Positions 14,604-26,895 of a DNA stretch of 64,000 nt are shown piece after piece. How positions within the stretch are numbered: the stretch's first letter is position 1; each line of letters starts with the position of its first letter. Origin of the DNA: Nitratiruptor sp. SB155-2 (GTDB lineage Bacteria > Campylobacterota > Campylobacteria > Campylobacterales > Nitratiruptoraceae); the NCBI RefSeq assembly GCF_000010325.1, contig NC_009662.1:1322501-1386500 (forward strand). Direction: 5' to 3'. The position numbers were made by a program, and so were the translations under genes. Under the pieces are notes generated by a model that was not told where the DNA came from, made no database searches, and worked only from the letters and a program-made list of their open reading frames with translations.

Positions 14604-14808
14604 TGTTTTCCTCCATCTCATTTGATTCTATGTTCCATAGTGTTAATGAGGCTCTATCGAGCATATCGGCTAATCTCTCCAATACAAATCGATAGCTAAC
14701 TTTGATATTCTCCTTCTCCATTTTGGCTACTATCATCTTGATAGTCTCGCTTGTTAACTCGATATCGCCTCTTGCCTCAATGAGGCTGTTGAGGTTAGCG
14801 GTTTTCAT
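14584..14808 (-). CDS. Small island protein of unknown function, replication operon
   Basis: A 74-residue protein starting at the ATG with AAGGAAGG upstream; the longer frame to 14847 lies inside the upstream gene. The sequence is mostly helical (SETIKMIVAKMEKENIKVSY, then FVLERLADMLDRASLTLW) with an acidic tail. No family is recognised. It overlaps both neighbours (14 bp upstream, 20 bp downstream), so its dose is probably tied to theirs. It may be an accessory to the primase. Confidence 0.55.
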   Translation of the reverse strand: MKTANLNSLIEARGDIELTSETIKMIVAKMEKENIKVSYRFVLERLADMLDRASLTLWNIESNEMEENNESQRA

Positions 14809-15223
14809 TGTTACCTTCCTTTTTATTGGATTCATTAAGGCTTGCATCGTGTATTGCGAAATTAAGTTTTACAAAGAGATCCTCTGTTTCATCTCGGAGT
14901 TTTCCAAGCTCTTTGATGGCCCTTTTGATAGCTCCAAACTGGTCTAAAAAGTCCTCTACTTTGAAGTGATAATCAAATCTCAATCTTTGAATCTCACTAT
15001 AAGCCTCCATTACCTTTACACTATTTGAGGCTAAATCAAGCTTTGACTTTAGTTCCTCATTCTCTTTTTCCAATCGTTCGAGATAATCCATCTTGTCCAT
15101 TAAGCCGTTGATTACCGCCTGTTTCTCTTTGCACTCCTCTTGCAGTTCTCGCACCTCATCCTTTAAGATGTGATTTTCCTCTTGTAGCTCTAAAAGCTTT
15201 GCTAATGCTTGTGATTTTGTCAT
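14795..15223 (-). CDS. Coiled-coil protein heading the island replication operon
   Basis: A 142-residue protein with AAGGAG ahead of the ATG. Residues 8-75 form a long heptad-like coiled coil (LLELQEENHILKDEVREL; YLERLEKENEELKSKLDLA), and the rest is helical and charged. No family is recognised. It is the first gene after the four-operator switch and has a near-consensus promoter, so it may be an early protein such as a regulator or replication scaffold. Confidence 0.6.
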   Translation of the reverse strand: MTKSQALAKLLELQEENHILKDEVRELQEECKEKQAVINGLMDKMDYLERLEKENEELKSKLDLASNSVKVMEAYSEIQRLRFDYHFKVEDFLDQFGAIKRAIKELGKLRDETEDLFVKLNFAIHDASLNESNKKEGNNENR

Positions 15224-15275
15224 GGTTGCTCCTTTACTTTCGATTTTTAGTAACCGTATGGTTACTTAAACAACA

Positions 15276-15304
15276 ATTTTATAACCTTTGGATTATTTTG
15301 TCAA
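15276..15304 (-). promoter_or_regulatory. Promoter of the island replication operon
   Basis: On the minus strand TTGACA (15304-15299) is followed after 17 bp by TAAAAT (15281-15276). An operator dyad fills the spacer, so a bound repressor would block polymerase. Confidence 0.65.
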
Positions 15305-15329
15305 TCTAAAATATAATCTTTTGGTTATG

Positions 15330-15340
15330 TATGCTATAAT
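15330..15340 (+). promoter_or_regulatory. Extended -10 promoter of the island repressor
   Basis: TATGCTATAAT carries a perfect -10 with the TGn extension; the -35 is not recognisable. It lies between the third and fourth operators and 32 bp ahead of the repressor ATG, suggesting autoregulation. Confidence 0.6.
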
Positions 15341-15371
15341 TTGATAACCTAAAGGTTATAAAAGGGATAGT

Positions 15372-15596
15372 ATGGATAATAAAGAATTCAAGCAATTGCT
15401 TAAAAAAGCTGGTCTTACAAATAAAGAACTGGCGGATCTTCTTAATATTAGTCCCCAAAGTGTTAATAACTGGTCTGTTAAGGGTTATCCTTATTGGCTC
15501 AAAAGTTGGCTGCAAAATTACATAAAAGCCAAAACTCTTGATAACGTTAAAGATGTTATCTGCAATGAAGATGATCCAAACTCCACTGCTTCTTAA
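15372..15596 (+). CDS. Small XRE/Cro-like helix-turn-helix regulator
   Basis: A 74-residue protein and the only confident plus-strand gene of the island. Residues 5-40 contain a helix-turn-helix, KKAGLTNKELADLLNISPQS followed by VNNWSVKGYP, with the LTNKELADLL/ISPQSVNNW pattern of XRE repressors. No dimerisation domain beyond about 30 further residues is visible. It is transcribed away from the replication operon across the four-operator region, so it is the obvious candidate to bind TAACC-N4-GGTTA and hold the operon off. Confidence 0.75.
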   Translation: MDNKEFKQLLKKAGLTNKELADLLNISPQSVNNWSVKGYPYWLKSWLQNYIKAKTLDNVKDVICNEDDPNSTAS

Positions 15597-15814: not shown

Positions 15815-16009
15815 TTATCCTTTTCGCTCTTCTATCCATTGCATCACTTCATTAAAGCTCCAGCGTGAGGCTCTAATCCCTATCTTTATAGGTTTTGGGA
15901 ATTTGCCATCACGGATATATTTGTAGATAGTGGGTTTTTTCATTCCTATAAGAGATGAAACCTCTTTGATGTCTATGAGCCTGTCTTGTTGTAGGGTTGG
16001 TAGTGTCAT
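15815..16009 (-). CDS. alpA: AlpA-family excisionase/transcription regulator
   Basis: A 64-residue protein with AAGGAGG five bases ahead of the ATG. RLIDIKEVSSLIGMKKPTIY, then KYIRDGKFPKPIKIG and RASRWSFNEVMQWIEER, is the full AlpA/MerR-like winged helix seen in P4-type elements. Such proteins activate the integrase or act as excision factors in prophages, satellites and PICIs. Its position between the integrase module and the replication switch is typical of Gram-negative PICIs. Confidence 0.85.
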   Translation of the reverse strand: MTLPTLQQDRLIDIKEVSSLIGMKKPTIYKYIRDGKFPKPIKIGIRASRWSFNEVMQWIEERKG

Positions 16010-16775: not shown

Positions 16776-16808
16776 TATTACCTCGCTTATGCAGTAAATT
16801 TATTTTTA

Positions 16809-17081
16809 TTAATACACCTCATCATGACTACCAATATCGAGCAAGATTATCTCCTTATCGGTGATAACTAAATCTATAACGATTCTGTAGCTCATAGAGA
16901 TTGAAACGGAGTAGTACTCTTTAAGTTTGCCTTGCAGTTTGTGGAGTCTCAAGCTCGGATAATGTGGATCGGCTGCAAGAATAGTCAAAACCTTTTTGTA
17001 TCTCTCTTTTAATTCTGGATGCTTTTTGATAAATCGCTTCTCTTTTTTGAGATAAGAGTCTGTAAAAATGAGCGTGTACAT
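16809..17081 (-). CDS. RelE/ParE-superfamily toxin, YafQ-like
   Basis: A 90-residue protein with the RelE fold pattern: FTDSYLKKEKRFIKKHPELK, a helix pair, DPHYPSLRLHKLQGKLKEYY, then SVSISMSYRIVIDLV and the ending ILLDIGSHDEVY. YafQ-type toxins cut mRNA on the ribosome and have a late His and a C-terminal aromatic, as here (H87, Y90). It starts directly after the antitoxin stop. A decayed relative stands outside the left island end (9790-9954). Confidence 0.85.
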   Translation of the reverse strand: MYTLIFTDSYLKKEKRFIKKHPELKERYKKVLTILAADPHYPSLRLHKLQGKLKEYYSVSISMSYRIVIDLVITDKEIILLDIGSHDEVY

Positions 17082-17333
17082 TTAAAGGCTCTTTAGATGG
17101 TTTTCAAGCTCTTCTTTGGTAGTAATAATCTTGGCTTTGCCTTGTTTGATTTCCTCTTGAGCTTGTAAATACGCTGCATCCAGCTCTGCAGCTCTCATCT
17201 GCTCATATCGTTCAAAATCTACAACGATATATTTGGGCTTTCCTCTAAAAGTAATAACTGCTTCATCTTTGGCTTGCAGTTCACTCTCAATAGCTTTTAT
17301 CCCTTTAACTTTTAATTCGTTAGCAGTAATCAT
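17082..17333 (-). CDS. Phd/YefM-family antitoxin
   Basis: An 83-residue protein starting MITANELKVKGIKAIESEL, with AVITFRGKPKYIVVDFERYE in the middle: the Phd/YefM DNA-binding N-terminus. The acidic C-terminal part (EEIKQGKAKIITTKEELENH) would wrap the toxin. It directly precedes the toxin gene and probably represses the pair. It lies beside the integrase, where it would favour retention of the island. Confidence 0.85.
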   Translation of the reverse strand: MITANELKVKGIKAIESELQAKDEAVITFRGKPKYIVVDFERYEQMRAAELDAAYLQAQEEIKQGKAKIITTKEELENHLKSL

Positions 17334-17380: not shown

Positions 17381-18619
17381 TCATTGGCTATTAAGGTAAT
17401 TTGCCCACCAGTTCAAAAGCTCTTTTCTATCTTCTAAAAAATCGCTTCTTAGATAGCTTTGCGTTACTTTTGAGCCTATATTGTGATGGAGCTGTGCCTC
17501 TATCGCTTCAAAGCTACAGCCATGCTCTTTTTGGTGCTCAAGAGCGATTGTCTCAAAGCTGCTTCTAAAGCCGTGTAGGTCTTGTTCTGGCTCGTTGAGG
17601 TCTATTTTAAGTACTTTTCTAAGGGTATTGTCTGAAATTGGTTTATGTGCATTTATTGGACTGCCAAAAACAATCTCACTGTAAGGACTGGCTATCGCTT
17701 TAGCCTGCTGTATTACTTTAACTATCGCATCCGTTAAAGGAATACGAAAAGGCTGATTTTTTGTTTTCATGGCTTCAGCTGGATAGATAATGACTCTTTT
17801 ATCAAAGTCTTTATAATCCCATTTAAGATTGGCTACATTGCCAAAACGTACTGCAGTAAGAGCGATATATTGTAGCGGTAATCTAAAGTAAGGATTTTGT
17901 AAAGAGCAGATTTTTTGATAGATCTCTTTTATTCGCTCATTCGTAACGGCTTTATGCCTGGTGGGTTTATGCTTTGGAATGAGGCTATCTATATCTATGC
18001 CCACTGCTGGATTGGTTTGTGTGTAGTCATTGTGGATAGCAAAGTCAAAGAGACTTTTGAGCAGTCTGTAGACTTCTCTTGCTTTATAGGTTTTGCCTGT
18101 GCTTCTATTGTCTTTTTGTAGTTTTGTGGAGTAGGTGTTTTTAACTATTTTGATGATGTCCTGTTTTGTTACCTCATCGATTTTTACTTCACCTATAAAT
18201 GGAGTGATATAGTTTGCAAAGGTATTGATGTAATTCTTTTGTAGCCTCGCTTTGCTTACCTCTTTGGCTTTATGCTGGATAAACCGTTCTATAACGAAAC
18301 TTGTAAATTTTTTATTCGCTTCAAGCTCTTTTATACGCTTTTGCTCTTGTTTATACCTATTTGGATCTATGCCGTTCTTTATAAGCTCTTTTACCTCATA
18401 CTTGATTTTTCTTGCCTGTGCAAGCGATATTTGTGGATAATCTCCTATAGTGTAGGTGTTTCTCTTGCCAGCATAGACGTAATCGAGCCTAAAAATCTTA
18501 CGTCCGTTTGGTTTGATTAAGATATAGAGTCCTTCACCATCTCTGAGCTTGTAATTTTTCTCTTTTGGCTTGGCGTTCCTAAGCTGCAGATCATTAAGAG
18601 GTCTTATACTTTTTGGCAC
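17381..18619 (-). CDS. int: Tyrosine integrase, P4-type with DUF4102 arm-binding domain
   Basis: A 412-residue protein with GTG start after GAGGTAACA. The N-terminal domain (LNDLQLRNAKPKEKNYKLRD; GRKIFRLDYVYAGKRNTYTI) is the DUF4102 arm-binding type. A core-binding domain follows at about 105-200. Catalytic residues are R258 (AVRFGNVANLKW), H349 and R352 (LHGFRSSF) and Y389 (VTQSYLRSD). It sits 184 bp from the tRNA-Leu end and reads away from it. The repeats GTACCGCA at both island ends are its likely arm sites. Confidence 0.9.
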   Translation of the reverse strand: MPKSIRPLNDLQLRNAKPKEKNYKLRDGEGLYILIKPNGRKIFRLDYVYAGKRNTYTIGDYPQISLAQARKIKYEVKELIKNGIDPNRYKQEQKRIKELEANKKFTSFVIERFIQHKAKEVSKARLQKNYINTFANYITPFIGEVKIDEVTKQDIIKIVKNTYSTKLQKDNRSTGKTYKAREVYRLLKSLFDFAIHNDYTQTNPAVGIDIDSLIPKHKPTRHKAVTNERIKEIYQKICSLQNPYFRLPLQYIALTAVRFGNVANLKWDYKDFDKRVIIYPAEAMKTKNQPFRIPLTDAIVKVIQQAKAIASPYSEIVFGSPINAHKPISDNTLRKVLKIDLNEPEQDLHGFRSSFETIALEHQKEHGCSFEAIEAQLHHNIGSKVTQSYLRSDFLEDRKELLNWWANYLNSQ

Positions 18620-18669: not shown

Positions 18670-18690
18670 CGTACCGCAAAACGTACCGCA
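18670..18690 (+). repeat. Right arm-type integrase binding sites (putative)
   Basis: CGTACCGCA occurs at 18670-18678 and 18682-18690, the same motif, orientation and 12-bp period as at the left end. The block lies between the integrase start and the tRNA, and so upstream of the integrase gene, where binding could also repress it. The remaining 18691-18802 shows no clear feature. Confidence 0.65.
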
Positions 18691-18803
18691 AAAAAATTTT
18701 ACTTTGAGTAAACTTAAATATACCACAATATACCAAAAAGCACGATTTGAAGGGGATTTTAAATTAGAAGATAGCCTTAAGAAAACTTAGATAAACCTTA
18801 ATG

Positions 18804-18891
<88 letters not shown>

Positions 18892-26694: not shown

Positions 26695-26895
26695 AAAAAG
26701 CCCGAGCGGGCGTTCGCGCAATGCCATGGTCCCTAAGACCATAAGAAGAGGGAGCGAGTTTTGGATTAGGCGGCGGCTCCTCGCCAGGCGTCCCTGGCTC
26801 AAACGGAGTCACCGACACACACCAAAATCTACAGACCTCCCTCAACGGATTATTGTCGGACCCCCATACTGCGGGTAGCGCACCGCTCAGGCTTT
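26695..26895 (-). ncRNA. ssrS: 6S-type regulatory RNA upstream of purD
   Basis: A minus-strand TATAAT (26907-26902) predicts a start at 26895. The roughly 201-nt RNA folds as one long rod. The ends pair (AAAGCC with GGCTTT, GAGCGG with CCGCTC). A poorly paired centre follows, then GAGGGAG (26843-26837) with CTCCCTC (26754-26748), TTTTGG with CCAAAA, CGGTG..CTCC with GGAG..CGCCG, and the apical hairpin GCCAGG-GACG-CCTGGC (26798-26783). The 3' end GCCC-GCTC-GGGC plus T6 is a terminator. Closing stem, open centre and long terminal stem are the 6S RNA layout, which sequesters sigma70 polymerase. The call is from structure, not a family search. Confidence 0.75.

Follow-up and report, generated by a model that had tools for sequence, protein, structure and literature searches.

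Phages lambda, 434 and P22 carry immunity regions (CI/Cro, OR and OL) in which the operators lie about two helical turns apart, two regulators compete and CI is cleavable. SetR of SXT/R391 responds to the SOS system and acts together with a second regulator, CroS. ImmR of ICEBs1 is controlled together with the protease ImmA. Phage-inducible chromosomal islands are controlled by Stl and AlpA, and Stl is much larger than the 74-aa protein described here.

The locus studied here lies in a 64,000-nucleotide stretch of the Nitratiruptor sp. SB155-2 genome (the window) and resembles each of these systems in part. With lambda, 434 and P22 it shares a small helix-turn-helix (HTH) protein, several dyads, divergent promoters and, as proposed below, autoregulation. 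According to the passages available from the SetR report, that system likewise has four partially dyad operators with AT-rich spacers between the repressor gene and a divergent early gene, and autoregulation (PMC4542580). ImmR is also the repressor of an integrative element and matches the 74-aa protein weakly in sequence and fold. The chromosomal islands share the integrase, AlpA, primase/helicase genes and a repressor divergent from the replication operon. Aca1 is of similar size and nearest fold, and its core promoter contains an inverted repeat, with another close by (PMC9410906). In this work we computed the operator array, its uniqueness in the genome, the spacing across the repressor family, the placement of the promoters, the association of operator with recognition helix, and a local swap between sister elements.

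Results

Putative operator array and divergent promoters

The region between the replication operon and the repressor gene contains the following features.

15251..15264: operator 1, TAACCGTATGGTTA; 16-bp perfect dyad with arms GTAACC...GGTTAC, directly downstream of the likely replication-operon transcript start
15276..15304, minus strand: leftward promoter of the replication operon, TTGACA-N17-TAAAAT; TTGACA is at the same place in relatives
15282..15295: operator 2, TAACCTTTGGATTA; within the -35/-10 spacer of the leftward promoter
15314..15327: operator 3, TAATCTTTTGGTTA; covers the -35/spacer position of the repressor promoter
15332..15340, plus strand: extended -10 of the repressor promoter, TGCTATAAT; between operators 3 and 4, with a -10-like element at this place in many relatives
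15345..15358: operator 4, TAACCTAAAGGTTA; where transcription of the repressor is expected to start, with the -10 on one side and the ATG on the other
15372..15596, plus strand: repressor, 74 aa, HTH_3/Xre type; four predicted helices, the C-terminal one long

The initial annotation had described four TAACC-N4-GGTTA operators at 31, 32 and 31 bp between divergent promoters. Four dyads are present at these positions, and their start-to-start spacing is 31, 32 and 31 bp (starts at 15251, 15282, 15314 and 15345), the same values as reported. The motif itself is exact in operators 1 and 4 and has one mismatch each in operators 2 and 3, so that the count of four was slightly generous. The dyad symmetry reaches 16 bp (RTAACC...GGTTAY).

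A genome search for the dyad had been proposed as a check. In the whole genome of 1,877,931 bp the exact motif has only 2 matches, operators 1 and 4. When one mismatch was allowed, 13 sites were found, 4 in the array and 9 scattered. The reversed pattern, used as a control, gave 49 matches; the 9 scattered sites therefore look like background. Since this background is about 5 per Mb, four sites within ~110 bp are not due to chance. With the exact dyad only at sites 1 and 4 and the other near-matches scattered, the array is specific to this place. The dyad is not frequent genome-wide, which would have told against the initial annotation.

The placement of two operators relative to the promoters also agreed with the annotation. 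On the minus strand, TTGACA (15304-15299) and TAAAAT (15281-15276) match the consensus at 11 of 12 positions, and the 17-bp spacer between them (15282-15298) holds operator 2. Operator 4 lies between the repressor -10 (15332-15340) and its ATG at 15372. In the aligned arrays of relatives, TTGACA adjoins operator 2 in many members, a -10-like sequence abuts the other edge of operator 2, and a TATAAT-like sequence lies between operators 3 and 4 in many members. The minus-strand -35, searched as WTGTCAA, occurs 24 times in these upstream regions, 18 of them between 80 and 66 bp upstream of the ATG, whereas control patterns gave a single match in the whole region.

The probable repressor

The open reading frame at 15372-15596 encodes 74 aa, which bears out the reported size of the repressor. 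Its HTH_3 domain scores 28.1 bits against PF01381, above the curated cut-off of 23. The AlphaFold model (mean pLDDT 81) has helices at residues 3-12, 17-23, 28-37 and 43-63 and a disordered tail. In this model the 74 aa make up the HTH and one C-terminal helix, and a RecA-cleavable C-terminal domain is absent.

Among solved structures, the most similar folds are those of Aca1, Aca2, ImmR and other small Xre proteins, but no E-value is significant. Aca1 is the closest PDB fold, with a TM of about 0.6 and a probability of 1.0, although E is 0.09. ImmR, also found by fold, is the best sequence match among solved structures, at a non-significant E=0.064. The C-terminal stretch NYIKAKTLDNVKDV is common to relatives with different HTH sequences.

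The element carrying the proposed switch

The other features of the element are listed below.

9984..9998: candidate second att core, 14/15 identical to the copy at 18803-18817
11864..13462, minus strand: DUF3987 replication protein, helicase-like (phrog_2373 DNA helicase)
13469..14329, minus strand: toprim-like protein, assigned by position and sequence reading, with no significant family match
14316..14621, minus strand: primase zinc-finger-like protein, weak CHC2/DnaG match
14584..14847, minus strand: operon gene, 87 aa, function unknown
14795..15223, minus strand: 142-aa coiled-coil protein, function unknown; first gene of the operon presumed to be repressed
15815..16009, minus strand: AlpA-family excisionase/regulator
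17381..18619, minus strand: tyrosine integrase, next to tRNA-Leu
18803..18817: candidate att core, 3' end of tRNA-Leu(GAG)

To the right of the repressor are AlpA, two genes of unknown function, a toxin-antitoxin pair and the integrase beside tRNA-Leu. An exact 11-mer search gave no second att site; a short-word search gave the 15-bp candidate at 9984-9998. Most likely this is a satellite-like element of ~8.8 kb, integrated at tRNA-Leu in a deep-sea bacterium. The element has the satellite trait of being short, with an integrase, AlpA and replication genes and without structural genes. No packaging-interference gene was recognised in it. No helper prophage was located in the genome with three phage structural Pfam models (PF10145, PF04860 and PF03237). 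A prophage, NrS-1, has been reported in strain SB155-2 in a published paper.

The initial annotation had called the locus a lysis/lysogeny-type switch. The wording is too strong for an element with an integrase, AlpA, primase/helicase and toxin-antitoxin genes in which no structural or lysis gene was recognised over ~8.8 kb. Divergent promoters, shared multiple operators and an HTH of the Cro/CI type are also what would be expected of a lambda-type bistable switch, in which a second, Cro-like regulator competes for the same operators. However, the divergent gene encodes a coiled-coil protein without an HTH match, and the other small HTH protein (10581-10808) is ~4.4 kb away with weak matches. 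The lack of recognised lysis and structural genes, together with a repressor that has no cleavage domain, also speaks against a lambda-type switch, which we consider improbable.

Several further observations were made in the window. GTACCGCA repeat pairs lie just inside both ends of the element (10062-10086 and 18671-18695) and are likely integrase arm sites. The toxin-antitoxin pair at 16809-17333 consists of a YafQ/ParE-like toxin and a Phd-like antitoxin, and is found in several sister elements (L006, L008, L073 and L075). The segments 9879-9957 and 16806-16884 are inverted copies of 79 nt, 78% complementary, of the end of a YafQ/RelE-like toxin gene. The broken gene end at 9879-9957 is just outside the left att candidate, which suggests an older insertion at the same tRNA. 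Inverted repeats of 32 nt, 91% complementary, at 10477-10508 and 11424-11455 are separated by ~0.9 kb that includes the small HTH gene at 10581-10808; they are possibly the ends of a small insertion. A sister genome contains a close DUF3987 homologue (79%) with one in-frame TGA (L153, G015:C1:250085-251671). This gene is far from the repressor homologue of its genome and is likely part of a decayed second element. Elsewhere in the window, a purD RNA motif is present upstream of purD (26700-26832; Rfam RF01069, 89.7 bits).

Operator spacing in the repressor family

Of 397 genomes sampled from the class, 113 contain a homologue of the repressor; homologues also occur in Helicobacter prophage records and Campylobacterota plasmids. 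We compiled 80 homologue regions, located their start codons and kept 74 non-redundant upstream regions. Weak matches in viral contigs (L016-L035), which are HTH-only alignments with larger repressors among them, were not used. Self-similarity and dyad symmetry were combined into one score at each lag between 16 and 60 bp and expressed as z against dinucleotide shuffles. A lag of 32 bp is the sole peak over the 74 regions, with a mean z of 2.32 compared to 0.65 or less at every other lag, and z exceeds 3 at this lag in 25 of them. Among 29 proteins less than 60% identical to each other, 17 have their best lag at 31-33 bp; control windows taken from these loci in 30 sets gave 0-5 of 29.

Arrays were then scanned with a matrix built from the best pair of each locus. 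Ten four-site arrays were found, including that of the window. All 20 outer spacings are 31 or 32 bp and the middle spacings are 31-34 bp. One spacing in each array is conditioned, because the scan started from a pair selected at lag 31-33; the other two are free. L142 and L114, which have four matches at irregular spacings, were left out of this count. In L005 the spacings are 31, 32 and 43 bp, the fourth site being at 43 bp. The scan with even dyad widths missed two Nitratiruptoraceae sister elements whose different dyads are odd-centred, and odd widths recovered both (L073: 31, 35, 32 bp; L007: 31, 33, 31 bp). The distance between pairs is thus looser, 31-35 bp. Five members of the Helicobacter type have a clear pair only, 32 bp apart at the central positions (operators 2 and 3). 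A clear array or a 31-33-bp repeat is missing in about half of the 74 homologues; these may reflect divergence, a different form of site or real absence, and AT-rich spacers blur weak sites.

The reading of the dyads as operators of the small divergent repressor, with the three-turn, same-face spacing proposed from the single locus, is well supported, and the layout is conserved across the family of the repressor. The regularity that had been called unusual is so in comparison to well-known operators and is normal within this family. As a family trait, the geometry makes the observation stronger than first stated. What is new is an operator layout that is family-wide, with three-turn spacing beside related Campylobacterota repressors despite changed sites. 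A literature search on operator spacing gave no paper on this repressor family.

Within a pair, the ~32-bp distance corresponds to three turns and would therefore set the two dimers on the same side of the helix. The initial annotation had suggested cooperative binding or looping, and we lean towards the view that the distance reflects stereospecific, cooperative pairing of the dimers. Direct contact is not obvious, because 16-bp sites leave ~16 bp between one dimer of this 74-aa protein and the next. The principal alternative is that the sites are bound independently, without cooperativity, the ~32 bp being set by covering a -35/-10 spacer and a start in two back-to-back promoters. In many members each pair does straddle a -10 at a similar offset, and the variation of the middle spacing over 31-35 bp fits the same explanation. 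An analogous case is that of the Aca1 and Aca2 promoters, where repression does not require the second inverted repeat (PMC9410906). Part of the spacing could be set by promoter geometry alone. However, an operator at the start site would be free over about 20 bp, yet none of the 20 outer spacings departs from 31 or 32 bp, and the Helicobacter members keep 32 bp with the central pair alone. We therefore regard independent binding as unlikely.

Operator sequence and recognition helix

Half-sites vary widely between loci (ATAACC, ATACTC, ATATGC, ATATAC, AAGTAC, ATCATT and others). The recognition-helix positions of the repressor align with residues 27-33 of 434 CI, and positions 27-30, 32 and 33 were used to calculate the helix distance. 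Over 35 loci, operator distance is correlated with helix distance once the remainder of the protein is taken into account (partial Mantel r=0.31, p=0.001). Shared ancestry contributes to the pattern, because the rest of the protein keeps a correlation with operator distance (partial r=0.24).

Compared with the window, the sister element L073 has 90-93% DNA identity in the flanking genes, 47% in the operator region, 57% in the HTH codons and 80% in the C-terminal codons. Such a pattern would be expected after a swap of specificity (heteroimmunity). It points to a specificity that evolves as a cassette of operators and HTH while the geometry stays fixed.

These results also bear on which protein binds the dyads. 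The sites precede genes of both directions, and AlpA (15815-16009) is a DNA-binding protein encoded nearby; AlpA or a host regulator might occupy them while the 74-aa protein regulates elsewhere. A relative of this AlpA was detected in only six of the larger loci, however, and many loci have arrays without AlpA. The site sequence follows the recognition helix of the adjacent protein, the L073 swap is concentrated in the operators and HTH codons, and sites for a host factor would not differ between sister elements. Binding by such another factor appears very improbable.

Discussion

We conclude, with a probability of roughly 80%, that the four dyads are operators of the 74-aa immunity repressor, operators 1 and 2 serving the replication promoter and operators 3 and 4 the repressor's own promoter. 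To judge from the DNA, the element is probably silenced by this tiny repressor on four evenly spaced putative sites. Each dyad would be bound by one repressor dimer. The leftward -10 lies between operators 1 and 2, the latter inside the spacer, and occupancy of these two would shut off replication. Operators 3 and 4 flank the repressor's own -10, and their occupancy would limit the supply of repressor. Induction may come from an antirepressor or a helper rather than from RecA cleavage. In related elements, operator sequence and recognition helix would change together, giving different immunity specificities with the geometry kept.

A wider reading is a Campylobacterota-wide immunity module of phages, plasmids and satellites, in which repressor dimers sit in a fixed 32-bp, three-turn register on two or four operators and operators plus HTH form the specificity cassette. 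We hold this reading with about even confidence. The loci would form a natural series in which specificity changes from one repressor-operator pair to the next while the geometry is constant; such a series could help to show how small HTH proteins choose their DNA and how immunity groups arise. The series would allow mutual exclusion among integrated Campylobacterota elements to be predicted. It also raises the question of how the dimer of a 74-residue protein could sense a neighbour three helical turns away.

Comparison with known systems

In contrast to the lambda, 434 and P22 regions, the spacing here is about three turns, there is one 74-aa repressor, and the gene opposite does not encode a Cro. 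The four SetR operators differ in affinity, and the available passages of that report do not describe a uniform spacing (PMC4542580). No ImmA-type protease partner was recognised for the 74-aa repressor. The fold raised the question of Aca membership, which we rejected because of the gene order: aca genes follow acr in one operon, whereas the gene studied here is transcribed divergently from the replication operon beside it, and no acr gene was recognised. Unlike in the phage-inducible chromosomal islands, no packaging-interference gene was recognised and no helper phage was identified with the three phage Pfam models. Taken together, the comparison points to a variant of an already known kind of repressor-operator system, with an unusually constant layout of control and an exchangeable specificity.
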